From assembly GCA_944800085.1 (NCBI GenBank), contig CALYLO010000001.1:20001-84000 (forward strand): a DNA stretch of 64,000 nucleotides, in the 5' to 3' direction. Positions 26,001 through 48,000 of the stretch are shown here, piece after piece (position 1 is the first letter of the stretch; each line of letters starts with the position of its first letter). This stretch comes from Paenibacillus melissococcoides. Lineage in GTDB: Bacteria > Bacillota > Bacilli > Paenibacillales > Paenibacillaceae. A program made the translations under genes and the position numbers. Under the pieces are notes generated by a model. The model saw nothing but the letters and a program-made list of their open reading frames with translations, was not told the origin of the DNA and made no database searches.

Positions 26001-29000
26001 CGAGCAGGCCGGCAAAAGCGAGGAAATTCGTTTCCCGGCGAAAACGGATGCGTACCGCACTTGGTCCGAGCAGCTGGCCGCTTACGCGCAAAGCCCGGAG
26101 ATGGCAAAGGAACGGGCTTATTGGCAGGCCGTGGAACAAATTGCGGTTCCGGCCTTGCCGAAGGATCTGGAGGCGGACGTTACGACGCAGCAGGACAGCG
26201 AATCGCTGTTCGTCCGTTTGACTCCCGAAGAAACGGAGCTGCTGCTGAAGCGGGTTCACCGGGCCTACAACACCGAAATGAACGATATTTTGGTAACGGC
26301 GCTCGGCATAGCCGTTCGCAAGTGGACGGGACACGAACGGGTGCGGATCAATCTCGAAGGACACGGACGCGAATCGATCGGAACGGATATCGACATCACG
26401 CGCACAGTCGGCTGGTTTACGACCAAGTTTCCGGTCGTCCTGGAGCCGGGAACCAACCGGGATTTGGCCTATCAGATTAAACACGTCAAGGAAAGCTTGC
26501 GCCGCATTCCGAATAAGGGGCTTGGGTACGGTGTATGCCGCTATCTCTCCAAATCGGAGGATGGCTTTGTTTGGGGCGCAGAGCCGGAAATTAATTTTAA
26601 CTACCTCGGCCAGTTCGACGATGATGTCAATCAGGACGAGCTCGGCATATCTTCTTATTCCAACGGAAACCCGGCCAGCGACCGGCAGGCCCGCAGCTTT
26701 GTGCTGGATATCAACGGCATGGTGCTGGACGGCGCTCTATCGCTCGATCTCAGCTACAGCCGGAAGCAGTATCGCAAGGAAACGATGGAAGCCTTCGCTC
26801 AGCGGCTTGAGCAAAGTCTCCGAGAGCTCATTACCCACTGCGCAGGCAAAGAACACACCGAATTGACGCCGAGCGATGTGCAATTTAAAGGCTTGACCAT
26901 CGCGGAATTGGAGCAAATCGGCCAGCGCTCGGGCCATGTCGGGGAAATCGAAAATATTTACTCGCTTACGCCGATGCAGAAGGGCATGTGGTTCCACAGC
27001 GCGCTTGACCGGCAAACGGCCGCTTACTTCGAGCAGACGCGGTTTACGATGCGGGGAGCGCTTGACGTCCAGCTTTTCGAGAGGAGCTGGATGGAGCTTG
27101 CGAAACGTCATCTGGTGCTGCGGGCGAATTTTGTGAAAGGACCGGCGGGCGAGCCGCTGCAAATCATATACCGCGACAAGCCGGTCGGCTTTGAATATGA
27201 AGAGCTGCTTCACTTGCAGTCGGACGAGAAACAAGCGTATTTGGATAAAAAGGCCGAGGATGACAAGCTTCGCGGCTTCGACATGGAACATGACGCGCTC
27301 GTTCGGGTTACGATCCTGCGCACCGAAGAGCAGAGCTATCATGTGCTGTGGAGTTTCCAGCATATTTTGATGGACGGCTGGTGCCTGCCGCAACTGACGC
27401 AGGAGCTGTTTGAGACGTACTCGGCCTTGGCATCCGGCAAGCAGCCAGCGGGAGATAAGGGATCGGATTATGGCGCCTATATCGAATGGTTGGAGAAACA
27501 GGACAATCAGGCGGCATCCGGCTATTGGACGGCGTTCCTGGCAGGTTATGAAGGGCAAACCGTACTCCCGGGACAAAAGGAACCGGCGCCGAACGGCAGA
27601 TTTACGGCTGATCACGTCACCGCCGAGCTGGGCAATGACTTGAGCGAGCGGATGGACCGGGTGGCGAAAGAGCGTCTGGTTACGGTCAATACGCTGCTGC
27701 AAGCCGCTTGGGGCGTGATGCTCCAAAAATATAACGGAACAAACGATGCCGTATTCGGCAGCGTCGTGGCCGGAAGACCGGCGGAAATCCCGGGCATTGA
27801 GTCCATGATCGGGCTGTTCATCAATACGGTGCCGGTCCGCGTCACGAGCGAAGGGGACACCGTGTTCGTCGACCTGATGGCGAAGCTCCAAGAGCGGGCG
27901 CTGGAGTCCGGGCGTTATGATTACTATCCGCTGTATGAAATTCAAGCCCGCAGCGTGCAAAAGCAAAACCTGATCAACCATATCATCGCTTTCGAGAACT
28001 ATCCGGTGGACGAGCAGATGGAGCAGGCGGGCGACCAGCAGCACGGCGACCTGACGATCACTGACTTTCAGATGGAGGAGCAGACGAACTATAACTTCAA
28101 CGTGACCGTGGTGCCGGGAGCCGAGATCGAAATTCGGTTCGACTTTAACGCCGAAGTGTTCGATAAAGACAGCATCGAACGGCTCAAGGGGCATCTCGTC
28201 CATCTGCTGGAGCAGGTGACGGATAACCCGGAAATTACCGTGGGTGAGCTGGAACTTGTGACGGAGGCGGAAAAGGCCGACCTTCTCGGACGTTTTAACG
28301 ACACCACCACGGAATTTCCCCGCGGGAAGACGCTCATTCAATTGTTCGAAGAGCAGGCGGAGCTTTACCCGGACAACGTGGCCGCCGTCATGAACGAGCG
28401 GCAGCTGACCTACCGCGAGCTGAACGAGCGATCCAACCGCCTTGCGCGGAAGCTGCGGGAGACGGGAGTAGAAGCGGACCAACTGGTAGCGATTCTGGCC
28501 GAACGCTCGCTCGATATGGTCGTCGGCATTCTGGCGATTCTCAAAGCGGGCGGAGCCTACGTGCCTGTCGATCCCGACTACCCGGAGGAGCGCATCCAGT
28601 TCATGATTGAGGATTCGGGCGCGCCGTTATTGCTGATTCAAAAGCATCTGCACGAGAAGACCGACTTCGCAGGAACGCGCCTCGAATTGGATGATTTCGT
28701 TTGGGGCGACAGAGGGGCGGACTCCGAAGGTGCGCTGGACGCTTTGAACCTGGAGCCGATTTCCGGGCCGGGCAACCTGGCTTATGTCATCTACACGTCG
28801 GGAACGACCGGCAGACCGAAGGGAACGCTGATCGAGCATAAGAACGTCGTGCGCCTTTTGTTCAACGACAAGAACCTGTTCGACTTCGGGCCGTCCGACA
28901 CGTGGACGCTGTTCCACTCGTTCTGCTTCGATTTCTCCGTCTGGGAAATGTACGGAGCGCTGCTGTATGGAGGCAAGCTGGTCATCGTACCGCCGCTCAC

Positions 29001-32000
29001 GGCGAAAAATCCGGCCGATTTCCTGGCGCTGCTGGGCCGCGAACAGGTCACGATTTTGAATCAGACGCCAACGTACTTCTACCAGCTGCTGCGTGAGGTC
29101 TTGGCGGACCATCCGTACGATCTGCGGATTCGCAACGTCATCTTCGGGGGCGAAGCGCTCAGTCCGCTGCTGCTCAAGGGCTTCAAGACGAAGTACCCGG
29201 AGACGAAGCTGATCAATATGTACGGCATTACCGAGACGACGGTTCACGTGACGTATAAGGAAATTACGTGGGTCGAGATTGAGGCGGCGAAGAGCAATAT
29301 CGGCAAGCCGATCCCGACGCAGAGCGTGTACATCCTTGATGAAAATCGCCGCCCTGTGCCGATCGGCGTAGCGGGCGAAATGTACGTGGCCGGGGAAGGC
29401 CTGGCGAGAGGATACCTGAACCGTCCGGATCTGACGGCGGAGAAGTTCGTCGATTCCCCGTTTGCGGAGGGGGAGAAGCTGTACCGCTCTGGCGACTTGG
29501 CGGCTTGGCTGCCGGACGGCAACATCGAATACCTGGGCCGGATCGACCACCAGGTGAAAATCCGCGGGTACCGGATCGAGCTGGACGAAATCGAGACGCA
29601 GCTTCTGAACGTCGAGGGCGTGGAAGAAGCGGTGGTGCTCGCCCGTCAGGACGGCGGGGGCGAGAAGGCGCTTGTCGCCTACTTTGTGGCGGACCGGACG
29701 CTGACGGTCAGCGAAATGAGAACCTCGCTGGCCCAGGGAATTCCGGGGTACATGATCCCGTCGTACTTCGTGCAGCTGGAGCGCATGCCGCTGACGACCA
29801 ACGGCAAAGTGGACCGCAAAGCGCTGCCGGAGCCGCAAGGCGGCATACAAACGGGCGTCGAATACGTAGCGCCGCGTAACTGGACGGAGTCCCAGCTTGT
29901 GAAGATCTGGGAGGAAGTGCTGGGCTACTCCGGCATTGGAGTCCTGGACAATTTCTTCGAGCTCGGAGGCCACTCCTTGCGGGCGACGAACCTTGTCAGC
30001 AAGATTCAGAAGGAAATGAACGTCGAACTTCCGCTGCGCGACGTATTCTGCTACTCGACGATCGAAGAGATGGCCCTCGCCATCTCCCGGATCGGAGAGC
30101 AGTCGTTCTCGTCGATTCCCCTGGCAGGCGCAAGAGCATATTATCCGCTTTCCTCAGCTCAGAAGCGGCTGTTTATCCTGAATCAGCTGGAAGGAGCCGA
30201 TCAGAGCTACAACATGCCGGGCGTGCTGCTGCTGGAAGGATCGATTGACCGGAGCCTGCTGGAGAAGGCTTTCCGCGGACTGATCGCACGGCATGAAACG
30301 CTGCGAACCGGCTTTGAGATCGTACAAGGCGAAGCAGTACAGCGCATTTACGAGAGCGTCGATTTTGCCGTCGAGTACCGTCATGCGAACGAGGAAGAAG
30401 CGCCTGAAGTCGTGCAGGACTTCATCCGGCCTTTCGACTTGGCGAAGCCTCCGCTGCTGCGGGCGGAGCTCGTAGAGCTGGCAGCCGAACGTTATTTGCT
30501 GATGTTCGACATGCACCATATCGTCTCCGACGGGGTTTCAATGGACGTGTTAGTCGAGGAACTCGTTCTCCTGTACGGCGGTGAGTCGTTAGAGCCTTTG
30601 CGCATTCAATACAAGGACTATGCGGTATGGCAACAGTCGGACGAACAAAAAGCGCAGTTGAAACGCGAGGAAGCTTACTGGCTGGACCATTACCGGGGCG
30701 AACTGCCGGTTCTGGAAATGCCGACGGACTATAAGCGTCCTGCCGTGCAGAGCTTTGAGGGACAAACGCTGACGTCCTTCGTGAACGAGGCAACGAACGA
30801 AGGTTTGAAGCAGCTGGCCGCTCAAAGAGGAGCGACGCTGTACATGGTGCTGCTTGCGGCATATACCGTGCTTTTGCATAAATATACAGGTCAGGACGAT
30901 TTGATCGTCGGAACGTCGATTGCGGGCAGAACACATGGAGACACGCAGCCTTTGATCGGAATGTTTGTCAATACGTTGGCGCTCCGCAATTATCCAGCTT
31001 CGGAGAAGACCTTCCTGTCGTATCTGGAAGAAGTGAAGGAAACGACCTTAGGCGCTTACGAGCATCAGAATTATCCGTTCGAAGAGCTCATCGATAAAGT
31101 GCAGGTCAGCCGGGATTTGAGCCGTAACCCGCTGTTTGACACGATGTTCTCCCTGCAAAACCTGGAGGATAAAGAGTTTGAGCTGGAAGGGCTGCAATTG
31201 TCCCCGTACCCTAGCGAATACGGTATGGCCAAGTTCGACCTGAGTGTGGATGTTACGGAAGAAAACGGCGGCCTGGAGTGCAGCTTTGAATTCGCAACGG
31301 CTCTTTATAAAGAAAGCACGATCCGGCGGCTGTCGACTCATTTTGGTCATTTGCTTGCGGCGATCGTAAGCCGTCCGGATGCGAAGATTGCCGAGCTGAA
31401 TTTGCTGACGGCAGAGGAAAAAGAGCAAATTCTCGGCGCGTTCCACCCGGCGCAGCCGGAAGCGGCTCCTGCGGCCGTGTTCCACCGGCTGTTCGAGGAA
31501 CAGGCGGAGCGCACGCCGGAAGCGGAGGCCGTCGTGTACGAGAACGACCGGCTGACGTATGCGGAGCTGAACGAGCGGGCGAACCGCTTGGCGGCCACGC
31601 TGCGCGCAAGCGGCATCGGCCGGGAGTCGATCGTCGGCATTCTCGCCGAGCGTTCGGTGGACTTGCTGGTGGCCGTGCTGGCCGTCTGGAAAGCGGGCGG
31701 GGCGTATGTGCCGCTCGACCCGGATTATCCGGCGGACCGCGTGCGGTTCATGCTTGAAGACAGCGGAGCGAAGGTGCTGCTGACGCAAACGCCGCTGCAA
31801 GAGCGTGCCGAAGCCTGGCTTGGCGAAGAGGAGCTGGCGCTGGCAGCGGTGCTGTACCTGGACGACGAAGCGTCGTACAGCGAGGAGCGGGCGAATGCGG
31901 CGATTGGCTCCGGCATTGTTTCCGGCAAGCTGACGGATGCTGTGGACGACGGCGATGAGAGCCATCAGCATGTCGGCACCGACAGCTTCCATGAAGCCCG

Positions 32001-35000
32001 TCCGGAGGATCTGGCGTACGTGATCTATACGTCGGGAACGACGGGCAAGCCGAAGGGCGTGATGATCGAGCACCGCAGCCTGGTGAACACGGCGGCGGGC
32101 TACCGGCGGGAATACCGGTTGGATCAGTTCCCGGTGCGCCTGCTGCAGCTCGCCAGCTTCTCGTTCGACGTGTTCGTGGGAGATATCGCCCGGACGCTGT
32201 ACAACGGAGGCACGATGGTGATTGTGCCGAAGGACGACCGGATCGATCCGTCTCGTCTGCACTACTGGATGGAGCGGGAGCGGGTCACCATCTTCGAATC
32301 GACGCCGGCGCTGATCGTGCCGTTCCTGGAGTACGTGCACGAGCAGGGGCTGGATATGAGCTGGATGGAGCTGTTGATCACGAGCTCGGACAGCTGCAGC
32401 GTGGCGGATTACCGGACCTTGCAGGAACGCTTCGGCTCGTTGTTCCGGATCATCAACGCATACGGCGTGACGGAAGCGGCAATCGACTCCAGCTTCTACG
32501 ACGAGGAGCTGACGAAGCTGCCGCAGACAGGCCATGTGCCGATCGGCAAAGCGTGGCTGAATGCGAAATTCTACATCTTGGACGCGCATTTGAATCCGGT
32601 GCCGGTCGGGGTGCTGGGCGAGCTGGTGATCGGCGGAGTCGGCGTGGCGCGCGGGTACTTGAACCGTCCGGAGCTGACGGAAGAGAAGTTCATAGACAGT
32701 CCGTTCGCCGCGGGCGAGCGGCTGTACCGCACGGGCGACTTGGCGCGGTGGATGGAGGACGGGAACGTGGACTTCATCGGCCGGATCGACAACCAGGCGA
32801 AAATCCGGGGGTACCGGATTGAGACGGGCGAGATCGAGTCGCAGCTGCTGCGGGTGGAAGGCGTGCGCGAAGCGGTGGTGCTGGTTCGAAGTGACGCGAA
32901 CGGGCAGAAGGCGCTATGCGCGTATTACACGCTGGATACCGGAGCGGAACTGGCAGTGAACGATCTGCGCGGCGCGCTGGCGCAGGAGCTGCCGGGCTAC
33001 ATGATCCCGTCGTACTTCGTGGAGCTGGAGCGCCTGCCTCTGACGCCGAACGGAAAGATTGACCGGAAGGCGCTGCCAGCGCCGGAAGGGGAAGCGGGAA
33101 GCGGAACGGAGTACGTCGCACCGCGCAATGAGCTGGAAACGAAGCTGGCGGCGATTTGGCAGGAGGTGCTGGAGCTTGCGAAGGAGATTGGCGTTCACGA
33201 CAACTTCTTCGACATCGGCGGCCACTCCCTGCGGGCGACGACGCTGGTCAGCAAGGTGCACAAGGAACTGAGCGTGGATCTGCCGCTGCGCGACGTGTTC
33301 CGCCATTCCACGATCGAGAGCATGGCGGCCGCCATTTCCCGGCTGGATGAGCAGACATTCGTTGCCATTCCGGTGGCGGATGACCGGGAGGTGTACCCGC
33401 AATCTTTTGCTCAAAAACGTCTCTTTATCCTGAATCAACTGGAAGACGCGGAGCTTAGCTACAACATGCCGGAGGCGATGCTGCTGGAGGGGGCTTTGGA
33501 CCGGGCAAGGTTCGAAGAAGCGTTCCGTAAGCTCATGGCGCGGCATGAAATGCTGCGCACCGGGTTCGAAATGGTGGATGGCGAAGCATCGCAGCGGGTT
33601 TACCAGGACTTGAATTTTGCCGTGGAGTTCTATCGAGTAGATGAGCAAGAGGCCGAAGAGACGGTTCGCCGTTTTGTCCGTCCGTTTGACTTGGCGAAGC
33701 CTCCGCTGCTGAGGGTAGGCCTTGTCGAGCTGGCTCCGGAACGCCATATTCTAATGTACGACATGCATCATATTATTTCCGACGGTGTCTCCATGGAAAT
33801 CTTTGTTGAAGAATTCGTCCGCTTGTACGGCGGCGAGCAATTGGAGCCTCTGCGCATTCAGTACAAAGACTACGCCGTTTGGCAGCATTCGCAGGAGCAG
33901 AAGGAACGGCTTCAGCGTCAGGAGGCGTACTGGCTGAACATGTTCCAAGGCGAGCTTCCGGTGCTGGAAATGCCAACCGACTATCCGCGTCCGGCCGTGC
34001 AGAGCTACGAAGGCCAAACGCTGGAGTTTTTCTTCGACGCTTCGAAAACTGACGGCCTAAGGCAACTGGCCTCGGAAACGGGCACGACGCTGTTTATGGT
34101 GTTGCTTGCGGCATATAATGTCCTTCTGCATAAATATTCAGGTCAGGAAGATGTGATCGTTGGTACGCCGATTGCCGGAAGGAATCATGGAGATGTGCAG
34201 CCGTTAATCGGGATGTTCTTAAACACGCTGGCGATCCGCAGTTATCCGGCTTCGGAGAAGACATTCCTGTCATACCTGAACGAAGTCAAAGAAACGACCC
34301 TCCACGCCTTCGAGCATCAAAACTATCCGTTCGAAGAATTGGTGGAAAAGGTGCAAGTCACCCGTGATTTAAGCCGCAATCCGCTCTTCGACACGCTGTT
34401 TACGATGCAGAATACGGAGAATGAGGAATTTGAGCTGGAAGGGCTTCGCCTGATTCCTTATCCGAGCGCACTGGATACCGCAAAGTTTGATATCAGCTTG
34501 GATGTGGGCGAGGAGAACGGCGGCTTGGATTACAGCTTCGAATATGCGACGGCTCTCTACAAAAGGGAGACGATTGAACGGCTGGCGAAGCATTACGAGC
34601 AGCTGCTCGTGACGATCATAAGCCGTCCAGATGCGAAGATCGCCGAGCTGAACTTGTTGACGGCAGAGGAAAAAGAACAAATTCTCGGCACGTTCAACCC
34701 CGCGCAGCCGGAAGCGGCTCCTGCGGCCGCGTTCTACCGGCTGTTCGAGGAACAGGCGGAGCGCACGCCGGAAGTGGAGGCCGTCGTGTACGAGAACGAC
34801 CGGCTGACGTATGCGGAGCTGAACGAGCGGGCGAACCGCTTGGCGGCCACGCTGCGCGCAAGCGGCATCGGCCGGGAGTCGATCGTCGGCATTCTCGCCG
34901 AGCGTTCGGTGGACTTGCTGGTGGCCGTGCTGGCCGTCTGGAAAGCGGGCGGGGCGTATGTGCCGCTCGACCCGGATTATCCGGCGGACCGCGTGCGGTT

Positions 35001-37977
35001 CATGCTTGAAGACAGCGGAGCGAAGGTACTGCTGACGCAAACGCCGCTGCAAGAGCGTGCCGAAGCCTGGCTTGGCGAAGAGGAGCTGGCGCTGGCAGCG
35101 GTGCTGTACCTGGACGACGAAGCGTCGTACAGCGAGGAGCGGGCGAATGCGGCGATTGGCTCCGGCATTGTTTCCGGCAAGCTGACGGATGCTGTGGACG
35201 ACGGCGATGAGAGCCATCAGCATGTCGGCACCGACAGCTTCCATGAAGCCCGTCCGGAGGATCTGGCGTACGTGATCTATACGTCGGGAACGACGGGCAA
35301 GCCGAAGGGCGTGATGATCGAGCACCGCAGCCTGGTGAACACGGCGGCGGGCTACCGGCGGGAATACCGGTTGGATCAGTTCCCGGTGCGCCTGCTGCAG
35401 CTCGCCAGCTTCTCGTTCGACGTGTTCGTGGGAGATATCGCCCGGACGCTGTACAACGGAGGCACGATGGTGATTGTGCCGAAGGACGATCGGATCGATC
35501 CGTCTCGTCTGCACTACTGGATGGAGCGGGAGCGGGTCACCATCTTCGAATCGACGCCGGCGCTGATCGTACCGTTCCTGGAGTACGTGCACGAGAAGGG
35601 GCTGGATATGAGCGGGATGGAGCTGTTGATCACAAGCTCGGACAGCTGCAGCGTGGCGGATTACCGAACCTTGCAGGAACGCTTCGGCTCGTTGTTCCGG
35701 ATCATCAACGCCTACGGCGTGACGGAAGCGGCGATCGACTCCAGCTTCTACGACGAGGAGCTGACGAAGCTGCCGCAGACAGGCCATGTGCCGATCGGCA
35801 AAGCGTGGCTGAATGCGAAATTCTACATCTTGGACGCGCATCTGAACCCGGTGCCGGTCGGGGTGCTGGGCGAGCTGGTTATCGGCGGAGTCGGCGTGGC
35901 GCGCGGGTACTTGAACCGTCCGGAGCTGACGGAAGAGAAGTTCGTAGACAGCCCGTTCGCCGCGGGCGAGCGGCTGTACCGCACGGGCGACTTGGCGCGG
36001 TGGATGGAGGACGGGAACGTGGACTTCATCGGCCGGATCGACAACCAGGCGAAAATCCGGGGGTACCGGATTGAGACGGGCGAGATCGAGTCGCAGCTGC
36101 TGCGGGTGGAAGGCGTGCGCGAAGCGGTGGTGCTGGTTCGAAGTGACGCGAACGGGCAGAAGGCGCTATGCGCGTATTACACGCTGGATACCGGAGCGGA
36201 ACTGGCAGTGAACGATCTGCGCGGCGCGCTGGCGCAGGAGCTGCCGGGCTACATGATCCCGTCGTACTTCGTGGAGCTGGAGCGCCTGCCTCTGACGCCG
36301 AACGGAAAGATTGACCGGAAGGCGCTGCCAGCGCCGGAAGGAGAAGCGGGAAGCGGAACGGAGTACGTCGCACCGCGCAATGAGCTGGAAACGAAGCTGG
36401 CGGCGATTTGGCAGGAGGTGCTGGGGCTTGCGAAGGAGATTGGCGTTCACGACAACTTCTTCGACATCGGCGGCCACTCCCTGCGGGCGACGGCGCTGGC
36501 GGGCAAGGTATTTAAGGAGTTAAACGTCAACCTGCCGCTGCGCGACGTATTCCGTCACTCGACGATTGCGGCGATGGCCGAGGCGATCGCCCGGATGGAA
36601 CGGCGGGAGCATGAGGTCATTCCTCAAGCGGAGGAGAGAGAGTACTACCCTCTGTCCTCTGCACAAAAACGGCTGTTCATTCAGCACACGCTGGATGGAG
36701 CGGATCAGCTTTACAACATGCCGGAGTTGGTGCAGGTGGAAGGCGAGTTTGATTTAGACCGGTTGGAAGCCGCCTTGCGGAAATTGATAACACGGCACGA
36801 ATCGCTGCGCACCGGTTTTGAAATCGTGAAGGGCGAAGCGGTTCAGCGGATTTACCCGCAGGTGGATTTTGCTATCGAGCATCATGAAGCGGATAAAGCG
36901 GATGCGGCTCAAATCGAGCAGATCGTTCGCAGCTTTGTTCGTCCGTTTGATCTCGGCAAGCCGCCGCTGTTGCGAGCCGGGATCATCGGGCTGGAGCCGA
37001 ACCTGCATATTCTCCTTTTCGACATGCACCATATCGTGTCCGACGGCGTATCGATGGAGATTGTGATCGATGAGTTATCGAGTTTCTACGCCGGGGAAGA
37101 ACTGCCGCCACTGCGCATTCAATACAAGGATTATGCCGTTTGGCAGCAGTCGAAGGCCCACCGAGATCGGATCGGGCGGCAGGAAGCGTACTGGCTGCAA
37201 ACCTTCGAAGGCGAGCTGCCGACGGCGGACCTGCCGATGGATTACGAACGGTCTGCGGTTCGCAGCTACGAAGGCGCGCATCTGGAGTTCGACGTTGAAG
37301 CTTCTCTCTCTGCGCGGGTGCGCGAATTGGCGGCCGAGCGTGAAAGCACGTTGTTCATGGTGCTGCTTGCGGCTTATACCGTGCTGCTGTCCAAGTACAG
37401 CGGGCAGGAGGACTTGGTCGTGGGCACCCCGGTGGCGGGAAGAACAAACGACGATTTGGAACCGGTCATCGGGATGTTTGTCAATACGCTGGCGATCCGC
37501 AATCGTCCGTCGGGCGACAAAACGTTCTTGTCCTACCTGGAAGAAGTGAAGGAAACGGCTTTGGGCGCTTTCGAGAACCAGGATTATCCATTCGAGGAAC
37601 TCGTGGAGCGTTTGAATGTGAAGCGGGAGCCGGGCCGCTTCCCGCTGTTCGATGCCGTTTTCGACTTGCAAAATATTGAAGAACGAGACGCCGAACTGGA
37701 AGGGGTCAGCCTGAAGACTTACGAGCTTGACCATTTGGAAGAAGCGAAGTTCGATCTGACGCTGTTTATGTATGAAAACAACGGGGCGCTGAGCGGGGGC
37801 TTCTTCTACGCCGCCAAGCTGTTCAAAGAAGCGATGATCCGCACCTTGACTGAGGATTACCTGCGGGTACTGTCTCAAATTGTGGAAAATCCGCAACTCG
37901 AGCTAAGCCGGATTGAATGTCACAAACCGTCGGCAGGCGCAAAGAGTGCCGTCGATACGATCGAATTCGCGTTTTAA
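23038..37977 (+). CDS. pmxA: Polymyxin synthetase PmxA, four-module NRPS (residues 6-9)
   Basis: 4979 residues. Domain order (rough residues): C-terminal half of a condensation domain 1-245, with no HHxxxDG; A 255-738, PCP 750-820 (Ser788), epimerization 830-1290 (HHAVVDGVSW); C 1298-1745 (QHILMDG, the type that follows epimerization), A 1755-2265, PCP (Ser2313); C 2364-2795, A 2800-3345, PCP (Ser3397); C 3449-3880, A 3884-4430, PCP (Ser4481); a final complete C 4534-4965. Specificity residues read by hand: DAWIVGAIVK (aliphatic/aromatic), DFWNIGMVHK (Thr), DVGEISAIDK twice (Dab). So it adds D-X6, Thr7, Dab8, Dab9, then presents a C domain for module 10. GTG 23038 is chosen because agaggggg lies upstream and because VAFEKETLFWNEKF aligns with the PmxB start; the frame is open from ATG 22945. 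Confidence 0.93.
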   Translation: MAFEKETLFWNEKFGSDNYTLTRLPYSKAPSSQAPIMTTVGGSLSEKAAQRVLQMSKGAPLAAFMILLAGVQSLLHKYTGASDILVGMPVVRKPTETRRSVNHTVILKNLLSAGATFKTLLSDLRTSLPETIQHQHIPFLKMTEKLDLQYADGIPVIHTLVSLKELHLDEIGQNVVTDCSFEFSLTGGTIQLALSYNEHLYDSKFMTRVVGHLNRLLAVGLHELELDIVRVDMLSEDEKFQLLQSFNDTEKDYPRDRTIHQLVEEQVKRVPEATAVVFEGRRLSYAELNERANRLARTLRSVGVLPNQLVGLMARRSLETVVGILAVLKAGGAYVPIDPEYPEERIRYILENSNAQLLLTQRELQQQVPFEGTVLTLDDEQAYSDDGTNLEPASGPNDLAYVIYTSGTTGKPKGVMLEHRGLVSLKLMFADRLGITEHDRIVQFASLSFDASCWEVFNALYFGAALYIPMAETILDNRLFESYMNEHAITAAILPPTYSAYLNPDRLPSLTKLVTGGSAVSAEFVQQWKPKVHYFNAYGPTEASIVTTLWDADEEQPERRVIPIGRPLANHRIFILDAHLQLVPPGVDGELCVAGVGLARGYLNHPELTAEKFVEHPFAPGERLYRTGDLARWLPDGNIEYLGRIDHQVKIRGFRIEIGEIEEQLLKIESVQETMVIAREGKSGQELCAYLVAGRPLTLGELRSALAQKLPNYMIPAHFVQLPRMPLTPNDKIDRKALPAPEGNALTGGAYVAPRNEAERTLADVWQAVLNADRVGVTDHFFELGGDSIKSIQVSSRLHQAGYKLEIRDLFKYPTISQLSLHVKPIGHTIDQGEVTGETALTPIQHWFFESSFADPHHFNQSVMLYRKERFDEETVRQVLQKLAEHHDALRMVFRKTEQGFSLRNRAIQEGGLFTLDVFDFKGAENTAQAVEAKATDIQAGIDLEKGPLVKAGLFRCADGDHLLLAVHHAVVDGVSWRILMEDFALGYEQAGKSEEIRFPAKTDAYRTWSEQLAAYAQSPEMAKERAYWQAVEQIAVPALPKDLEADVTTQQDSESLFVRLTPEETELLLKRVHRAYNTEMNDILVTALGIAVRKWTGHERVRINLEGHGRESIGTDIDITRTVGWFTTKFPVVLEPGTNRDLAYQIKHVKESLRRIPNKGLGYGVCRYLSKSEDGFVWGAEPEINFNYLGQFDDDVNQDELGISSYSNGNPASDRQARSFVLDINGMVLDGALSLDLSYSRKQYRKETMEAFAQRLEQSLRELITHCAGKEHTELTPSDVQFKGLTIAELEQIGQRSGHVGEIENIYSLTPMQKGMWFHSALDRQTAAYFEQTRFTMRGALDVQLFERSWMELAKRHLVLRANFVKGPAGEPLQIIYRDKPVGFEYEELLHLQSDEKQAYLDKKAEDDKLRGFDMEHDALVRVTILRTEEQSYHVLWSFQHILMDGWCLPQLTQELFETYSALASGKQPAGDKGSDYGAYIEWLEKQDNQAASGYWTAFLAGYEGQTVLPGQKEPAPNGRFTADHVTAELGNDLSERMDRVAKERLVTVNTLLQAAWGVMLQKYNGTNDAVFGSVVAGRPAEIPGIESMIGLFINTVPVRVTSEGDTVFVDLMAKLQERALESGRYDYYPLYEIQARSVQKQNLINHIIAFENYPVDEQMEQAGDQQHGDLTITDFQMEEQTNYNFNVTVVPGAEIEIRFDFNAEVFDKDSIERLKGHLVHLLEQVTDNPEITVGELELVTEAEKADLLGRFNDTTTEFPRGKTLIQLFEEQAELYPDNVAAVMNERQLTYRELNERSNRLARKLRETGVEADQLVAILAERSLDMVVGILAILKAGGAYVPVDPDYPEERIQFMIEDSGAPLLLIQKHLHEKTDFAGTRLELDDFVWGDRGADSEGALDALNLEPISGPGNLAYVIYTSGTTGRPKGTLIEHKNVVRLLFNDKNLFDFGPSDTWTLFHSFCFDFSVWEMYGALLYGGKLVIVPPLTAKNPADFLALLGREQVTILNQTPTYFYQLLREVLADHPYDLRIRNVIFGGEALSPLLLKGFKTKYPETKLINMYGITETTVHVTYKEITWVEIEAAKSNIGKPIPTQSVYILDENRRPVPIGVAGEMYVAGEGLARGYLNRPDLTAEKFVDSPFAEGEKLYRSGDLAAWLPDGNIEYLGRIDHQVKIRGYRIELDEIETQLLNVEGVEEAVVLARQDGGGEKALVAYFVADRTLTVSEMRTSLAQGIPGYMIPSYFVQLERMPLTTNGKVDRKALPEPQGGIQTGVEYVAPRNWTESQLVKIWEEVLGYSGIGVLDNFFELGGHSLRATNLVSKIQKEMNVELPLRDVFCYSTIEEMALAISRIGEQSFSSIPLAGARAYYPLSSAQKRLFILNQLEGADQSYNMPGVLLLEGSIDRSLLEKAFRGLIARHETLRTGFEIVQGEAVQRIYESVDFAVEYRHANEEEAPEVVQDFIRPFDLAKPPLLRAELVELAAERYLLMFDMHHIVSDGVSMDVLVEELVLLYGGESLEPLRIQYKDYAVWQQSDEQKAQLKREEAYWLDHYRGELPVLEMPTDYKRPAVQSFEGQTLTSFVNEATNEGLKQLAAQRGATLYMVLLAAYTVLLHKYTGQDDLIVGTSIAGRTHGDTQPLIGMFVNTLALRNYPASEKTFLSYLEEVKETTLGAYEHQNYPFEELIDKVQVSRDLSRNPLFDTMFSLQNLEDKEFELEGLQLSPYPSEYGMAKFDLSVDVTEENGGLECSFEFATALYKESTIRRLSTHFGHLLAAIVSRPDAKIAELNLLTAEEKEQILGAFHPAQPEAAPAAVFHRLFEEQAERTPEAEAVVYENDRLTYAELNERANRLAATLRASGIGRESIVGILAERSVDLLVAVLAVWKAGGAYVPLDPDYPADRVRFMLEDSGAKVLLTQTPLQERAEAWLGEEELALAAVLYLDDEASYSEERANAAIGSGIVSGKLTDAVDDGDESHQHVGTDSFHEARPEDLAYVIYTSGTTGKPKGVMIEHRSLVNTAAGYRREYRLDQFPVRLLQLASFSFDVFVGDIARTLYNGGTMVIVPKDDRIDPSRLHYWMERERVTIFESTPALIVPFLEYVHEQGLDMSWMELLITSSDSCSVADYRTLQERFGSLFRIINAYGVTEAAIDSSFYDEELTKLPQTGHVPIGKAWLNAKFYILDAHLNPVPVGVLGELVIGGVGVARGYLNRPELTEEKFIDSPFAAGERLYRTGDLARWMEDGNVDFIGRIDNQAKIRGYRIETGEIESQLLRVEGVREAVVLVRSDANGQKALCAYYTLDTGAELAVNDLRGALAQELPGYMIPSYFVELERLPLTPNGKIDRKALPAPEGEAGSGTEYVAPRNELETKLAAIWQEVLELAKEIGVHDNFFDIGGHSLRATTLVSKVHKELSVDLPLRDVFRHSTIESMAAAISRLDEQTFVAIPVADDREVYPQSFAQKRLFILNQLEDAELSYNMPEAMLLEGALDRARFEEAFRKLMARHEMLRTGFEMVDGEASQRVYQDLNFAVEFYRVDEQEAEETVRRFVRPFDLAKPPLLRVGLVELAPERHILMYDMHHIISDGVSMEIFVEEFVRLYGGEQLEPLRIQYKDYAVWQHSQEQKERLQRQEAYWLNMFQGELPVLEMPTDYPRPAVQSYEGQTLEFFFDASKTDGLRQLASETGTTLFMVLLAAYNVLLHKYSGQEDVIVGTPIAGRNHGDVQPLIGMFLNTLAIRSYPASEKTFLSYLNEVKETTLHAFEHQNYPFEELVEKVQVTRDLSRNPLFDTLFTMQNTENEEFELEGLRLIPYPSALDTAKFDISLDVGEENGGLDYSFEYATALYKRETIERLAKHYEQLLVTIISRPDAKIAELNLLTAEEKEQILGTFNPAQPEAAPAAAFYRLFEEQAERTPEVEAVVYENDRLTYAELNERANRLAATLRASGIGRESIVGILAERSVDLLVAVLAVWKAGGAYVPLDPDYPADRVRFMLEDSGAKVLLTQTPLQERAEAWLGEEELALAAVLYLDDEASYSEERANAAIGSGIVSGKLTDAVDDGDESHQHVGTDSFHEARPEDLAYVIYTSGTTGKPKGVMIEHRSLVNTAAGYRREYRLDQFPVRLLQLASFSFDVFVGDIARTLYNGGTMVIVPKDDRIDPSRLHYWMERERVTIFESTPALIVPFLEYVHEKGLDMSGMELLITSSDSCSVADYRTLQERFGSLFRIINAYGVTEAAIDSSFYDEELTKLPQTGHVPIGKAWLNAKFYILDAHLNPVPVGVLGELVIGGVGVARGYLNRPELTEEKFVDSPFAAGERLYRTGDLARWMEDGNVDFIGRIDNQAKIRGYRIETGEIESQLLRVEGVREAVVLVRSDANGQKALCAYYTLDTGAELAVNDLRGALAQELPGYMIPSYFVELERLPLTPNGKIDRKALPAPEGEAGSGTEYVAPRNELETKLAAIWQEVLGLAKEIGVHDNFFDIGGHSLRATALAGKVFKELNVNLPLRDVFRHSTIAAMAEAIARMERREHEVIPQAEEREYYPLSSAQKRLFIQHTLDGADQLYNMPELVQVEGEFDLDRLEAALRKLITRHESLRTGFEIVKGEAVQRIYPQVDFAIEHHEADKADAAQIEQIVRSFVRPFDLGKPPLLRAGIIGLEPNLHILLFDMHHIVSDGVSMEIVIDELSSFYAGEELPPLRIQYKDYAVWQQSKAHRDRIGRQEAYWLQTFEGELPTADLPMDYERSAVRSYEGAHLEFDVEASLSARVRELAAERESTLFMVLLAAYTVLLSKYSGQEDLVVGTPVAGRTNDDLEPVIGMFVNTLAIRNRPSGDKTFLSYLEEVKETALGAFENQDYPFEELVERLNVKREPGRFPLFDAVFDLQNIEERDAELEGVSLKTYELDHLEEAKFDLTLFMYENNGALSGGFFYAAKLFKEAMIRTLTEDYLRVLSQIVENPQLELSRIECHKPSAGAKSAVDTIEFAF
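28330..29640 (+). repeat. Near-identical Thr A-domain repeat, copy in pmxA module 7
   Basis: The adenylation DNA here is almost the same as about 38940-40200 (pmxB) and 49580-50890 (pmxE module 2), with only scattered differences. The flanking condensation domains differ strongly. Confidence 0.85.
31440..33330 (+). repeat. Near-identical Dab A-PCP repeat, unit 1 (PmxA module 8)
   Basis: Almost identical DNA recurs 3252 bp downstream at about 34690-36580, and its adenylation part again at about 57390-58780 and 60640-62040 in pmxE. The differences seen are scattered single bases. This is far more alike than the condensation domains between the copies. Confidence 0.85.
34690..36580 (+). repeat. 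Near-identical Dab A-PCP repeat, unit 2 (PmxA module 9)
   Basis: Second copy of the unit at 31440-33330, offset by 3252 bp (1084 codons). The similarity ends within the PCP, where unit 1 reads STIESMAAAI and unit 2 reads STIAAMAEAI. Confidence 0.85.
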
Positions 37978-38058
37978 TCTTACAAGCGCGCCTCCGCCGT
38001 CAAGCGAAAGCGGCGCGCATCCCAAGGAAGACGGCGAACAACGTCCAAGCCCGTAAAC

Positions 38059-38093
38059 GCGCAGGCCGAAAGCAAGCTTTTTCGGACCTGCGC
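38059..38093 (+). other. Strong hairpin in the pmxA-pmxB gap
   Basis: Arms gcgcaggccgaaa/tttcggacctgcgc with a single bulged base, about 38 bp before pmxB. No T run follows, so it is not a standard terminator; it may cause partial attenuation or mark an mRNA processing site. Confidence 0.5.
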
Positions 38094-38131
38094 CTGGGCA
38101 AGGGGTTACTTCATTTTTAGGGGAGGTACGA

Positions 38132-41100
38132 ATGAAATCTTTATTTGAAAAGGAAGAACGGTACTGGAGCGGCAAGTTTGACGCCGATGACAGCCTGAGC
38201 TTCCTTCCCTACAGTCAATCCTCCAAATTATCCGCCGACGGGGAAGCTTCGGCCGAGCCGGGCTTGCTTCACCGTACTCTGCCGAGCGAACTCTCGGAGA
38301 GAATCATTCGCCTCGCCAACGGTTCGGATTTGGCTTTGTACATGATTGTTTTGGCAGGAGTAAAAAGCCTGCTGTTCAAATATACCGGACAGGACCAAGT
38401 GCTGGTCGGCATGCCTTCTTATAGCGCAGACCCCGACGGGACTCCGCCGCCGCATGACATCTTGGTGATCAAGACGTCCGTAAGCCGCCAGACTACGCTG
38501 AAAACGCTCCTCGGGGGCATCAAAGCTTCCATCGGCGAGGCGCTGGAGCATCAGCATCTGCCTTTTCGAAAAATGGTGGAGCCGCTCCATCTGGACTATA
38601 CGGGGGACGGCCTCCCGGTCGTCAACACCGTCGCATCTTTCGCCCCGATTCATCCGGTACCGCTGGGTAACCGGGTGGCGGCCGATACGGTTTTTCAATT
38701 TGACCGCCAAAACCACTCCATCAAGCTGGAAATAAGCTTTGACGGGCAGCGGTACGAGCGGGCATTTGTGGAACAGGCGGCCGACCATCTTGTTCGGCTG
38801 CTGTCCGTGCTTTTATTTCAGCCGGATCTGGAGCTTGGACAAGCCGATGTGCTGTCCCCAGACGAGAGGGAGACGCTGCTGAAGCGATTTAATGACACCG
38901 AAACCGGGTTCGAGCAGGGGAAAACGATTCACGGCTTGTTCGAAGAGCAGGCGGAGCTTTACCCGGACCACGTGGCCGCCGTCATGAATGAGCGGCAGCT
39001 GACCTACCGCGAGCTGAACGAGCGATCCAACCGCCTTGCACGGAAGCTGCGGGAGACGGGAGCAGAAGCGGACCAACTGGTAGCGATTCTGGCCGAACGC
39101 TCCCTTGATATGGTCGTCGGCATTCTGGCGATTCTCAAAGCGGGCGGAGCCTACGTGCCTGTCGATCCCGACTACCCGGAGGAGCGCATCCGCTTCATGA
39201 TTGAGGATTCGGGCGCGCCGTTATTGCTGATTCAAAAGCATCTGCACGAGAAGACCGACTTCGCAGGAACGCGCCTCGAATTGGATGATTTTGTTTGGGG
39301 CGACAGAGGGGCGGACTCCGAAGGTGCGCTGGACACTTTGAACCTGGAGCCGATTTCCGGGCCGGGCAACCTGGCTTATGTCATCTACACGTCGGGAACG
39401 ACCGGCAGGCCGAAAGGAACGCTGATCGAGCATAAGAACGTCGTGCGCCTCCTGTTCAACGACAAGAACCTGTTCGACTTCGGGCCGTCCGACACGTGGA
39501 CGCTGTTTCACTCGTTCTGCTTCGATTTCTCCGTCTGGGAAATGTACGGAGCGCTGCTGTACGGAGGCAAGCTGGTCATCGTACCGCCGCTCACGGCGAA
39601 AAATCCGGCCGATTTCTTGGCGCTGTTAGGCCGCGAACAGGTTACGATTTTGAATCAGACGCCAACGTACTTCTACCAGCTGCTGCGTAAGGTCTTGGCG
39701 GACCATCCGTACGATCTGCGGATTCGCAACGTCATCTTCGGGGGCGAAGCGCTGAGTCCGCTGCTGCTCAAGGGCTTCAAGACGAAGTACCCGGAGACGA
39801 AGCTGATCAATATGTACGGCATTACCGAGACGACGGTTCACGTGACGTATAAGGAAATTACGTGGGTCGAAATGGAGGCGGCGAAGAGCAATATCGGCAA
39901 GCCGATCCCGACGCTGAGGGTGTACATCCTTGATGAAAACCGCCGCCCAGTGCCGATCGGCGTAGCGGGCGAAATGTACGTGGCCGGGGAAGGCCTGGCG
40001 AGAGGATACCTGAACCGTCCGGATCTGACGGCGGAGAAGTTCGTCGATTCCCCGTTTGCGGAGGGGGAGAAGCTGTACCGCTCGGGCGACTTGGCGGCTT
40101 GGCTGCCGGACGGCAACATCGAATACCTGGGCCGGATCGACCATCAGGTGAAAATCCGCGGGTACCGGATCGAGCTGGACGAAATCGAGACGCAGCTGCT
40201 GAAGATCGCCGCCGTGCAAGAAGCCAAGGTGCTCGACCGCGACGATGCGAACGGTCAAAAGCAGCTTGTCGCTTACTACGTCGCGGAAACGAGGCTGGCG
40301 GCGAATGAACTCAAGGAGGAGCTCGCCAAGCAGCTTCCGGGGTATATGATTCCTTCGCACCTTGTGCAGCTTTCGCGGATGCCGCTGACCCCCAACGGGA
40401 AAATCGACCGCAAAGCGCTGCCCGCGCCGGAGGAAGCCGCGGCCGGAGGAGCGGAATATGTCGCGCCGAGAACGTTGCTCGAAATGAAGATCGCCCGCGT
40501 CTGGCAGGATACGCTTGGCGTTCCGCAGGTCGGCGTAAAGGATAACTTTTTTGAGTTGGGTGGCAATTCGTTAAGTCTGATGAGGCTCGTTCAAGCCGTT
40601 TACGATGAAACGGGCATCGAGATACCGCTGAACCGCCAATTCCATCATGTAACCGTTGAAGCCATGGCTTTCGGAGAGGGGGATCTGGGCCTGGATAAAG
40701 GGGGAGACTCCTTCATTAAGCTGAATAAAGCAGGAGATCTGAGCGTGTTCTGCTTCCCTCCGGGCAGCGGCTTCGGCATCGGTTACCGGGAGCTCGCGAG
40801 CAGGCTCGACGGCCGGTTCGTTCTCTACGGCATTGATTTTATCGACGATGCCGCCGATTACGAGGCCATGCTGAACCGTTATGTGGACGAGATTGTCTGC
40901 ATCCAGCCGGAAGGACCTTACGTGCTGCTCGGCTACTGCTTTGGAGGCAATCTCACGTTCGAGGTAGCCAGAACGATGGAGAAAAGAGGGTATTCCGTAA
41001 CGGACGTGCTCATGGTGGATTCGTGGATTAAGGACACGCTGACGCCTCCCGAAACGTCGGAGAAAGAGCTTGAAGAAACGCTTGCCGATTTCGACGAAGA

Positions 41101-41440
41101 AGAGAAGGAATTAATGAGCAATCCGCTCGTGCGGGAGCGGGTTCATCGGAAGGTCAAAGCGACCTTGACGTACGAAGCGCAGCTTATTAATTCCGGCACG
41201 ATCCCGGCCCGGATTTACGAGCTGATTGCGAAAGACAGCGAAGCGTTCCGCCTGGAGCACCAATTGCCGTCCTGGCGGGGGGCAACGACGCAAGCTTACG
41301 CCGATTACCGGCTGGAGGGCGCACACGAGGAATTGCTGGAACTCGCGCGCGTGGACGAAACGGCCGTTGTCATCCGGGACATCTTAGAGCAAGTCAAGCG
41401 GCAGATCGAAGCGGAGGCCGGGGTACTGCATGGAAGCTGA
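38132..41440 (+). CDS. pmxB: Polymyxin synthetase PmxB, terminal module 10 with thioesterase
   Basis: 1102 residues. It begins with a half condensation domain (about 1-245) that lacks the HHxxxDG catalytic half; then A (about 255-765, pocket DFWNIGMVHK, Thr), PCP (ELGGNSL, Ser813), and a type I thioesterase (about 860-1095). The thioesterase should release the decapeptide and close the ring from Thr10 onto the Dab4 side chain. Its nucleophile elbow reads GYCFGG, placing Cys936 where most NRPS thioesterases have Ser; the Asp in LMVDSW and the His in EGAHEEL complete a possible Cys-Asp-His triad. ATG 38132 follows ggggagg. The end overlaps pmxC by 11 bp. Length is typical of PmxB. Confidence 0.94.
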   Translation: MKSLFEKEERYWSGKFDADDSLSFLPYSQSSKLSADGEASAEPGLLHRTLPSELSERIIRLANGSDLALYMIVLAGVKSLLFKYTGQDQVLVGMPSYSADPDGTPPPHDILVIKTSVSRQTTLKTLLGGIKASIGEALEHQHLPFRKMVEPLHLDYTGDGLPVVNTVASFAPIHPVPLGNRVAADTVFQFDRQNHSIKLEISFDGQRYERAFVEQAADHLVRLLSVLLFQPDLELGQADVLSPDERETLLKRFNDTETGFEQGKTIHGLFEEQAELYPDHVAAVMNERQLTYRELNERSNRLARKLRETGAEADQLVAILAERSLDMVVGILAILKAGGAYVPVDPDYPEERIRFMIEDSGAPLLLIQKHLHEKTDFAGTRLELDDFVWGDRGADSEGALDTLNLEPISGPGNLAYVIYTSGTTGRPKGTLIEHKNVVRLLFNDKNLFDFGPSDTWTLFHSFCFDFSVWEMYGALLYGGKLVIVPPLTAKNPADFLALLGREQVTILNQTPTYFYQLLRKVLADHPYDLRIRNVIFGGEALSPLLLKGFKTKYPETKLINMYGITETTVHVTYKEITWVEMEAAKSNIGKPIPTLRVYILDENRRPVPIGVAGEMYVAGEGLARGYLNRPDLTAEKFVDSPFAEGEKLYRSGDLAAWLPDGNIEYLGRIDHQVKIRGYRIELDEIETQLLKIAAVQEAKVLDRDDANGQKQLVAYYVAETRLAANELKEELAKQLPGYMIPSHLVQLSRMPLTPNGKIDRKALPAPEEAAAGGAEYVAPRTLLEMKIARVWQDTLGVPQVGVKDNFFELGGNSLSLMRLVQAVYDETGIEIPLNRQFHHVTVEAMAFGEGDLGLDKGGDSFIKLNKAGDLSVFCFPPGSGFGIGYRELASRLDGRFVLYGIDFIDDAADYEAMLNRYVDEIVCIQPEGPYVLLGYCFGGNLTFEVARTMEKRGYSVTDVLMVDSWIKDTLTPPETSEKELEETLADFDEEEKELMSNPLVRERVHRKVKATLTYEAQLINSGTIPARIYELIAKDSEAFRLEHQLPSWRGATTQAYADYRLEGAHEELLELARVDETAVVIRDILEQVKRQIEAEAGVLHGS
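38940..40200 (+). repeat. Near-identical Thr A-domain repeat, copy in pmxB
   Basis: Copy of 28330-29640; similarity falls away after the ELDEIETQLL segment, where pmxB reads KIAAVQEAKV. Confidence 0.85.
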
Positions 41441-45025: not shown

Positions 45026-48000
45026 GTGAGAGAGAATACCAACGAGCAATATGGATTAACGCAAGCCCAGCGCCGAATATGGTTCATGGAAATTATGAAT
45101 CCGGGAACGTCCATCACGATGCTTTCCGCAACCTACCAAATTATGGGCGAGATCGACACACAGCTTCTGGAGCAAGCGGCGGCAGAGATCGTCAAAACCT
45201 ATGACGCTTTCCGAATCCGCATTAGCGGGGATTTGCAAAATCCAACGCAGTGGTTCGAAGATCCGGAGAATGTCCAAGCCAGGATAAGCCGCCTCGAATT
45301 AAGCACAACCGAACAATTCTATGCTTGGGTGAAAGAAGTAAGCGAAAAACCGGCCAGCGTGTTTGACGAATACCTCCACCAATTTACGATTATCCATTTC
45401 GCGAACGGCCAGGTATGGCTCAATTTGACGATAAATCATATTATCGCCGACGGTTTGTCCGTCACTGCCTTGCTGCATGCGGTGATGGAAAAATACCTGG
45501 AACTGCGCAAAGGCATCTCCAGCAGTTACCAGGCCCCTTCCTATCTGGATTATATTTCCGCGGAGCGTGAATATGAGCAATCGCAGCGTTATCAAAAAGG
45601 CAAGGAATACTGGCTGAAGAAGTACAGCACTTTGCCTGAAACGACCGGCATTAAATCGTATCCGCCATTCGCGATCGGCAGCGAAGCCAATAAACGGGCC
45701 ATCACTTTGGACGGTTCCTGGTATGAACGCATTCTGGCCTTCAGCGAACAATATCAGGTCAGCTTATATACGTTATTTTTGTCCGCTATGTATGCCTTAT
45801 TGTACAAGCTGACCGACAGCACCGATATTCCGGTCGGCACGGTTTTCGCCAATCGCACCAGCAAAAAGGAAAAAGAAACGATCGGCATGTTCGTCAGCAC
45901 CGTGGCCACGCGGATTCGTCTGAATCCAGACGGGCACGTGCTTTCCTTGATCCAAACGGTTTCCAAGGAAAATACGGCGGATCTGCGGTATCAGAAATAC
46001 CCTTATAACCAATTGATTCAGGATTTACGCGAACAACACGGCCGCAACGATCTTTCGGGGCTGTTCCGCACGTCTCTGGAATATCTGCCTTTGAAAATCG
46101 TGGAGTACGAAGAAATCAAGGTGCGTCTGGAGGCTCACTTCGCTAGGCACGAGATGGACGATTTGCTGCTGCGCTTCGACCATATGCTGAGTGAAGGCCA
46201 TGTCATTCTCCATGCTTCCTATCGTACCGGCCTGTTCGAGACGGCCGAGATTGATCGGATTATGGAACAGTATGTAACTGTTCTGGACCAGTTTCTTCAG
46301 ACTCCCGAACTGCCAGTACGCGAGATTTCTCTGCTGAGCGATGAGGAGAGACACCGCATTCTCAACGTGTTTAACCCGCCTGTGGCAGGGCTGAGCGAGG
46401 GAGAAGCGTTTCATCGGTATGTTGAAAAGTTGGCCCGGGAAATTCCGGATCATCCGGCAGTCGTCTACATGGACAAACAGCTGACCTACGGTGAATTGAA
46501 CGAACGCGCTGAGCGGCTGGCTTCTCTCCTTCGTGAACAGGGCGTGGGAAGAGAGACGATTACGGGGATCTGGGCGGAGCGTTCGGTGGAACTGCTGGTC
46601 GGGGCGCTCGCCGTTTGGAAAGCCGGCGGAGCCTATGTACCGCTGGACCCCGATTATCCGGCGGAGCGGATTGAATACATGCTCAGCGATAGCGAAGCAT
46701 CGGTGTTGCTTACGCAGCGTCATCTGTTGGAGCGGGCCGGAGGTTGGTTGGCCGATGACCGGCTGAAGCTTCAAGCTGTCTATGCCATGGACGATGAACA
46801 GATTTATAAGGGGGATGCCTTAGCCGTGGAATTTGAATCTGCCGGCAGCGCCCCGCAAGACTTGGCTTATGTGATTTACACCTCGGGTACGACGGGACGC
46901 CCGAAAGGCGTCATGATCGAGCACGGTAGTCTCGTGAATACGGCGGATGCGTACCGTCGCGAGTACCGGTTGGATCAGTTCCCGGTGCGGCTGCTGCAGC
47001 TGGCCAGCTTCTCGTTTGACGTGTTCGTCGGAGACATCGCGCGGACGCTGTATAACGGAGGCACGATGGTGATTGTGCCGAAGGACGACCGGATTGATCC
47101 GAACCGCTTATACGGCTGGATTCGGGAGCAAGACATTACGGTATTCGAATCGACGCCTGCGCTCATCCTGCCGTTCATGCAGCATCTTTATGAAGAAGGG
47201 CTGGACGTCAGCTCCATGCAGTTGCTGATTACCAGCTCGGATGCTTGCAGTGTCACCGATTACCGATTGCTGCAGGAAAGATTCGGCGGACAATTTCGCA
47301 TCATCAACAGCTATGGCGTTACCGAAGCGGCCATTGACAGCAGCTTTTACGATGAGCCGCTGGACAAGCTGCCGCCGTCGGGTCATGTGCCGATCGGCAA
47401 AGCTTGGCTGAACGCCCGGTTTTACATTGTCGATGCCGCGTTAAAGCCGGTTCCTGTAGGGGTTCCGGGCGAGCTTGTCATCGGCGGCGCCGGGGTGGCG
47501 CGCGGGTACTGGAACCGTCCGGACCTAACCGCCGAGAAGTTTGCGGACAGCCCGTTTGTGCCGGGTGAACGTCTGTACCGGACAGGCGATTTGGCCCGCT
47601 GGCTGGAAGACGGCAACGTCGACTTCATCGGCCGGATCGACTATCAGGTGAAAATTCGCGGGTTCCGGATCGAACTCGGCGAAATTGAAACGGCCCTGCT
47701 GGGTTTTCCGGGCGTCAAGCAGGCTGTGGTGACCGACCGTATGGACGAGCAGGGGCAAAAGTATTTGTGCGGCTACGTGGCGGCGGATGCTTCCTTGCAG
47801 CTGAGCGATCTGCTGTCCCAATTGAAGCAAGAGCTGCCGGCGCATATGGTCCCGGCCCGGCTGGTGTCTCTTGATAAGCTTCCGCTCACGCCGAACGGCA
47901 AAATTGACCGTAAAGCGCTGCCTGAACCGACCGGAGAGATAGAAGCAGGACGTGAGCATGTGGCTCCTCGCACAACGCTGGAAACAAGACTTGCTCTCAT

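Follow-up and report, generated by a model that had tools for sequence, protein, structure and literature searches.

How does one non-ribosomal peptide synthetase (NRPS) subunit find the next when the receiving protein begins with only half of a condensation (C) domain? The question is raised by a polymyxin-type gene cluster, made up of PmxA, PmxB, two further genes and PmxE, in a 64,000-nucleotide stretch of Paenibacillus melissococcoides DNA (assembly GCA_944800085.1, contig CALYLO010000001.1, positions 20,001 to 84,000 of the forward strand), here called the window. A first-pass annotation, made from the letters of the window, had pointed out that PmxE and PmxA both end in a complete C domain followed by a short similar tail, and that PmxA and PmxB both open with about 245 residues matching only the C-terminal half of such a domain. 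It had offered two accounts of this, a docking pair distinct from the usual communication-mediating (COM) helices or an evolutionary scar of module splitting. Our analysis favors the first of these: the tail and the half C domain (hereafter half-C) probably dock to each other where a C domain meets its adenylation (A) domain, and the half-C would seat the A domain and likely receive the tail. This reading rests on the recurrence of the arrangement, the conservation of the tail and two structure predictions, and so bears on the tail rather than on a contact between the half-C and the terminal C domain itself. The parts concerned, numbered from the first nucleotide of the window, are as follows, where T and TE denote thiolation and thioesterase domains.

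22945..37977, + strand: PmxA, NRPS of 5010 amino acids (aa), running from half-C and A domain to a terminal C domain and tail
23035..23766, + strand: PmxA half-C, residues 31-274, predicted receptor of the PmxE tail; matches PF00668 at positions 188-456 only
36622..37938, + strand: PmxA terminal complete C domain, residues 4560-4998
37954..37974, + strand: PmxA C-terminal tail DTIEFAF, supported by the motif statistics given below; stop codon at 37975-37977
38132..41440, + strand: PmxB, NRPS of 1102 aa, half-C, A, T and TE
38138..38881, + strand: PmxB half-C, residues 3-250, predicted receptor of the PmxA tail; matches PF00668 at positions 189-456 only
41430-44986: two genes between PmxB and PmxE, annotated by position and by the naming of the first-pass annotation only
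45026..63901, + strand: PmxE, NRPS of 6291 aa, with a terminal C domain and tail at its end
62558..63874, + strand: PmxE terminal complete C domain, residues 5845-6283
63878..63898, + strand: PmxE C-terminal tail EAIDIIF

For the P. polymyxa cluster, the accessible part of the published description gives ten modules in the order PmxE, PmxA, PmxB (PMC3708778). The two corresponding hand-overs, PmxE to PmxA and PmxA to PmxB, were found to share one architecture, as had been claimed, with a full C domain and tail on the donor side and a half-C on the acceptor side. The half-Cs of PmxA and PmxB scored 71.8 and 59.7 bits, respectively, above the Pfam gathering score, and Pfam gave no match to the first half of PF00668 at the start of either protein. 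The segments HQHIPF (PmxA residue 165) and HQHLPF (PmxB residue 140) are present, while the sequence scan and Pfam agreed that HHxxxDG is absent from both half-Cs; HHxxxD does not occur anywhere in PmxB, and its earliest occurrence in PmxA is at residue 999. The half-C is thus not a catalytic C domain, having homology to the C-terminal lobe and lacking the N-terminal lobe that carries HHxxxDG. It is followed by a retained C-A linker motif, NDT...TIHxLFEEQ. On the donor side, Pfam identified full C domains at the C-termini of PmxE (429.7 bits, with HHIVTDG) and PmxA (419.6 bits, with HHIVSDG), after which 8-12 residues remain, LEAIDIIF in PmxE and AKSAVDTIEFAF in PmxA. The interval first assigned to the feature, 36640-38880, fits the PmxA-to-PmxB junction but misses the PmxE-to-PmxA junction, which lies at 62558-63898 and 23035-23766.

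The arrangement is repeated elsewhere in the same genome, where 48 PF00668 matches include four complete half-Cs that open a reading frame (profile positions 185-192 to 452-456). Each of the four has a partner that ends in a C domain, namely PmxE, PmxA and, for the two half-Cs outside the window, the directly upstream gene. One of these genes, a 1221-aa frame (L001:1933-5598, G000:C1), ends in a C domain and TVEFDF, and the other, an NRPS at L002, ends in QGEFGL. Two other frames of this genome end shortly after a C-like domain, and both carry TPSD tails, a sign of ends of the epimerization (E)/COM kind; in this check of last C-like domains, several broken frames on one contig were left unjudged. 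The 1221-aa frame appears by eye to begin with a ketosynthase-like region, so that this kind of junction extends beyond subunits that are purely NRPS. We also observed NRPS frames of this genome that are broken within C domains, by mutation or in assembly (L246, G000:C17:52000-61500; L003, G000:C1:841001-860000).

We searched the genus with a profile built from these four half-Cs and used a 37-row profile for searches beyond the family. Within the genus, 52 matches of at least 192 bits were found in 17 of the 19 genomes, and the next match, a full C domain, scored 162.6 bits. At family level, 59 of 295 genomes and 10 of 19 genera gave matches at 1e-50, with at most 8 candidates scored per large genome. 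With the 37-row profile, matches also came from further families in the order, and among 398 genomes drawn across the phylum it picked up G748 (304 and 286 bits) and, weakly, G574, in another order of the class; the tails in these more distant genomes read DSIQLNF, SEIELNF and a degenerate ELDDLKI. The border of this profile is not clean far out, as lobes of full C domains reach scores of 175.6 and later 182 (L165, which was dropped); L143, the half-C that is most distant, has a score of 178. For this reason, the 129 of 296 genomes matched with the broader profile include full C domains and do not amount to a half-C count. Removal of identical sequences left 133 distinct half-Cs, all of which start within 83 residues of the start of their frame, so that none sits in the interior of a longer one. 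Among them are 23 PmxA orthologues, whose partner PmxE is encoded elsewhere in the cluster, and the other 110 were tested for adjacency. For 104 of these 110, the directly upstream protein ends in a C domain, and comparison with other NRPSs that begin in a lone C-lobe, as foreseen in the first-pass annotation, thus showed that the arrangement recurs.

The tail, which had been described simply as short and similar, proved to be better conserved than any other part of the arrangement. A strict motif, [DEQ][FILV]x[FLI], stands at the very C-terminus of 97 of the 104 adjacent upstream proteins, and six of the seven that miss it carry a variant that is one residue longer (EVDFF type). When the pairs were thinned to below 80% half-C identity, 55 of 59 still matched the strict pattern and 58 a looser one. 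As controls, we scored 372 further closed frames from the loci (150 aa or longer, many of them not genuine genes), of which 1 ends in the motif, and shuffled versions of the last 20 residues, of which 1.9% do. Named Paenibacillus loci matched throughout (55/55), although this set overlaps the other genomes and is not independent, and all ten PmxE orthologues end in AIDIIF, AIDIFF or AIEIMF.

Six of the 110 half-Cs lack an adjacent terminal C domain (L092, L107, L104, L109, L051 and L108). L092 lies at a contig end, and a tail was seen there; at L107 the upstream frame is broken, and the tail EIDFIF was seen; a terminal C domain ending in EYTGFDF lies about 3.5 kb upstream of L104; and the L109 cluster holds a second tail, NAIEFHF. 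L051 and L108 are considered below. At L104, the half-C gene is adjoined upstream by a gene for a 596-aa protein without a C domain (L104:1357-3145; G132:C1, about 6066284-6068072), the end of which, DGDWNFD, bears a faint likeness to the docking tails. The cluster represented by L106, L109 and L254 (G039:C1) contains two proteins with a half-C and, out of gene order with them, two terminal C domains with tails (NLELMF and NAIEFHF), and position there does not tell which half-C pairs with which tail.

An investigation into the relationships among the half-Cs placed all 37 representatives in one clade (support 0.995; 237 alignment columns), apart from 98 full C domains. The nearest full C domains were two starter C domains, a placement that is uncertain because of long branches. 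Twenty columns kept in at least 80% of the full C domains are missing from at least 85% of the half-Cs, and these form two deletions, one of 4 columns just before IGMFVNT and one of 16 columns between the LQN and FDLTL strands. Judging by position, we equate the deletions with the floor loop and the latch, defined in the accessible text of PMC11546977 as the two segments through which the C-lobe extends over to the N-lobe. The single clade and the two common internal deletions indicate one specialized family rather than repeated scars. Furthermore, since by this assignment the parts lost are only those meant for the absent N-lobe, while the fold and the linker to the A domain were retained, the half-C looks adapted and not decaying.

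We next turn to the structure predictions, which were made with AlphaFold2 on tethered single chains with the stop codon read as serine. The L058 chain carries the end of a PmxA-type gene and the start of a PmxB-type gene in one frame, and consists of 25 tail residues, the serine, 51 residues translated from the intergenic region, the half-C and the A core (84 aligned rows). Its model had a mean predicted local distance difference test (pLDDT) of 86 and a predicted template modeling score of 0.83. Residues 16-27 (SAVDTIEFAFSS) were not under pLDDT 50, while the flanks, residues 1-15 and 28-76, were; the block 21-30 averaged 71. The half-C and A core overlaid McyB-C1A1 over 614 residues at 2.7 Å and EntF over 630 residues at 3.2 Å, and because the model overlays these known C-A didomains, the half-C is predicted to take the position against the A domain that a C-lobe normally has in a C-A platform. 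The second chain, from the divergent L080, contained the tail, linker and half-C only and had a mean pLDDT of 80. Among its first 60 residues, only residues 26-30 (IDFAF) exceeded pLDDT 50, and the block 21-30 averaged 54. The disordered linkers of both chains serve as an internal negative control. In the structural overlays, donor-state LgrA entries (9be4, 9be3, 9meh, 6mfy and 6mfz with the L058 model) align from model residue 13-18 on. The LgrA residues opposite this point, about 732-747, belong to the carrier protein that precedes the C domain. The alignment to the thiolation-state entry 6mg0 begins only at residue 79 or 68. These ranges hint at a tail position equivalent to that of a donor carrier protein, which we treat as a lead rather than evidence, as it concerns the ends of aligned ranges only; many other overlay rows start at residues 1-12 as noise, and the L080 model is weak there.

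These findings, together with the domain layout, suggest how the hand-over could work. The assembly line is split at the boundary of a C domain and its A domain, such that the upstream protein retains the working C domain that joins residue n to residue n+1, and the A-T unit for residue n+1 lies on the next protein; a carrier protein of a different chain must therefore come to the terminal C domain. The upstream tail, a hydrophobic-[Asp/Glu]-Phe-x-Phe sequence at the very end, stands where the C-A linker would otherwise begin. The non-catalytic half-C, as a stripped acceptor-side lobe, would seat the first A domain as in a normal C-A platform and would also be the place where the tail of the preceding synthetase docks. 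The docked tail would hold the upstream C domain beside the downstream A-T unit, and the downstream carrier protein could thereby gain access in trans to the acceptor face of that C domain. Tail binding to the half-C, its role in the hand-over and its specificity are what we infer from sequences and models. With regard to the proposal of a docking pair distinct from COM helices, the recurrence, the conserved tail and the two predictions all speak for it, and the binding itself is a prediction.

The tails of successive junctions differ in their acidic residue. In all 12 genomes with adjacent-partner half-Cs of both the PmxA-like and the PmxB-like kind, I-D-F tails go with the first and I-E-F or I-Q-F tails with the second, a count that uses the two closest halves; in G016, a third, distant half-C carries Asp with a B-like half. 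Eight of the nine polymyxin-type genomes with both tails also follow Asp versus Glu. The tails of the two junctions thus differ (Asp versus Glu/Gln) in 20 of 21 genomes, the exception being G020, with Glu in both (AIEIMF and TIEFAF). Judged from the sequences, this pattern would be compatible with a specificity code. Nonetheless, since the two half-C clades are old and the difference was mostly inherited with them (the tree shows 8 changes), such a code is not proven by it.

Several observations weigh against docking of the tail on the half-C. The contact was deduced from pLDDT order alone, in tethered chains; a conserved column can by itself raise pLDDT; and the L080 prediction is weak (54). 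Five tree tests found no case of tail and half-C changing together on the same branch. Since no co-change occurred on a common branch, the high covariation scores at half-C positions 3, 5, 8, 9, 113, 127, 148 and 149 are explained by shared ancestry, and they were not used. For L051 (G012:C1, 3695164) and L108 (G102:C26, 58468), no tailed terminal C domain was present in the flanking DNA examined, and these half-Cs are possibly starter modules like that of ThdA. Lone C-lobes also occur where docking is not expected, as in the ThdA starter module and in the profile of Lys2-type aminoadipate reductases. This last profile, TIGR03443 (1390 positions), matches both half-Cs near its own start, at 7-222 for that of PmxA (42 bits) and at 43-222 for that of PmxB. 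Lys2-type aminoadipate reductases are single-module enzymes of A, T and reductase domains, and to our knowledge neither an upstream synthetase partner nor a C-terminal tail is expected for them. The match also raises the possibility that the placing of a lone C-lobe ahead of an A domain is old and occurs outside NRPSs.

Such cases would agree with the half-C being a structural placeholder that serves the stability and activity of the A domain and nothing else, with the tail a remnant of the C-A linker or employed in some other role and the hand-over made through other contacts. The overlay of the half-C and A core with normal C-A platforms, the retained linker motif, the lone truncated C domain before the starter A domain of ThdA (in the part of PMC7253712 that reports it) and the absence of a partner near L051 and L108 all fit this account. 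It would, however, leave unexplained the common motif in 97 of 104 upstream proteins, the absence of that motif from the two E-terminated frames of the P. melissococcoides genome and the predicted order of the motif in both models, and we consider it unlikely. The tail might instead bind the A domain, the downstream T domain or its own C domain, since the clearer prediction (L058) held the A core and that of L080, without it, was weaker. Yet the motif was still the sole ordered stretch in the first 60 residues of the L080 chain, and it is the half-C, not the A domain, that is special to these junctions, making another target quite improbable. As to the scar proposed in the first-pass annotation, by which the half-C would be what remains, without function, of a C domain that was split or internally recombined, the break does fall close to the border between lobes at which engineered synthetases are fused (CAsub/CDsub, in the accessible text of PMC11546977). 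Independent splits, however, would place each half-C beside its own partner's C domain in the tree, and the single clade apart from all 98 full C domains and the two common deletions led us to reject the scar as the main account. With no half-C inside a longer frame, and with its persistence in at least 17 of the 19 sampled genomes of the genus at 192 bits or more, we hold it to be very improbable. Docking of the tail on the half-C thus remains the reading that we prefer.

If true, it would explain the subunit order in the polymyxin and related Paenibacillus lipopeptide synthetases, and would add a class beside the COM, PAX and betaHD classes of NRPS docking treated in the accessible text of a review, in which no docking element is listed at the C/A boundary among the classes reviewed (PMC9113145). 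It would also provide a natural portable cut site between C and A, where swaps of tail and half-C could re-order subunits, a tool that engineered assembly lines need. Full-text searches of an open-access library, from which subscription papers and preprints are mostly absent, gave no description of the tail and half-C pair. The pair would be a form of subunit docking, itself a known phenomenon, with a fair chance of deserving a class of its own. Whether that class is defined by a trimmed acceptor lobe that binds a hydrophobic-[D/E]-F-x-F peptide at the C/A boundary, with Asp versus Glu helping to keep successive junctions apart, we regard as evenly balanced.

Among known systems, the pairs of short linear motif (SLiM) and β-hairpin docking (betaHD) domain in NRPSs and hybrid polyketide synthase-NRPS lines come close, in that a short unstructured C-terminal motif is bound by the folded N-terminal domain of the next subunit (PMC9113145, in the part available). 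Here too an upstream C-terminal motif (97 of 104 tails) is predicted to bind a downstream N-terminal domain, but the receptor is a C-lobe of about 245 residues and not a small alpha-beta-beta-alpha-alpha domain, and the motif follows a C domain instead of a carrier protein, placing the junction at C/A and not at T/C. A small N-terminal betaHD domain was not seen, as Pfam and the model show only a C-lobe and then the A domain; no betaHD profile was searched by itself. The COM (helix-hand) system likewise pairs NRPS subunits through their ends. As described in the accessible text of PMC11546977, its donors follow an E domain, carry TPSD and meet a complete C domain. In contrast, the donors in the window follow C domains with HHxxxDG and end in EAIDIIF and DTIEFAF, without an E domain or TPSD, and the acceptors PmxA and PmxB begin with a half-C and then A. 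The exchange units of the XUC type (CAsub-A-T-CDsub), in the same source, also cut the C domain between its two lobes, but these are engineered fusions, while here a natural half-lobe starts one subunit and the partner has a complete C domain. The thermoactinoamide synthetase ThdA shares the lone C-terminal part of a C domain before an A domain, labeled in the available text as a truncated "C*, probably inactive" before the starter A domain (PMC7253712). ThdA, however, starts its line and has no upstream partner, whereas PmxA and PmxB are downstream modules by the order given in PMC3708778, and 104 of the 110 half-Cs have an adjacent terminal-C partner. Because lone C-lobes are known without a partner in ThdA and, by a profile match, in the Lys2-type enzymes, the placeholder role is probably a general one, and what is new would be the reception of the tail.

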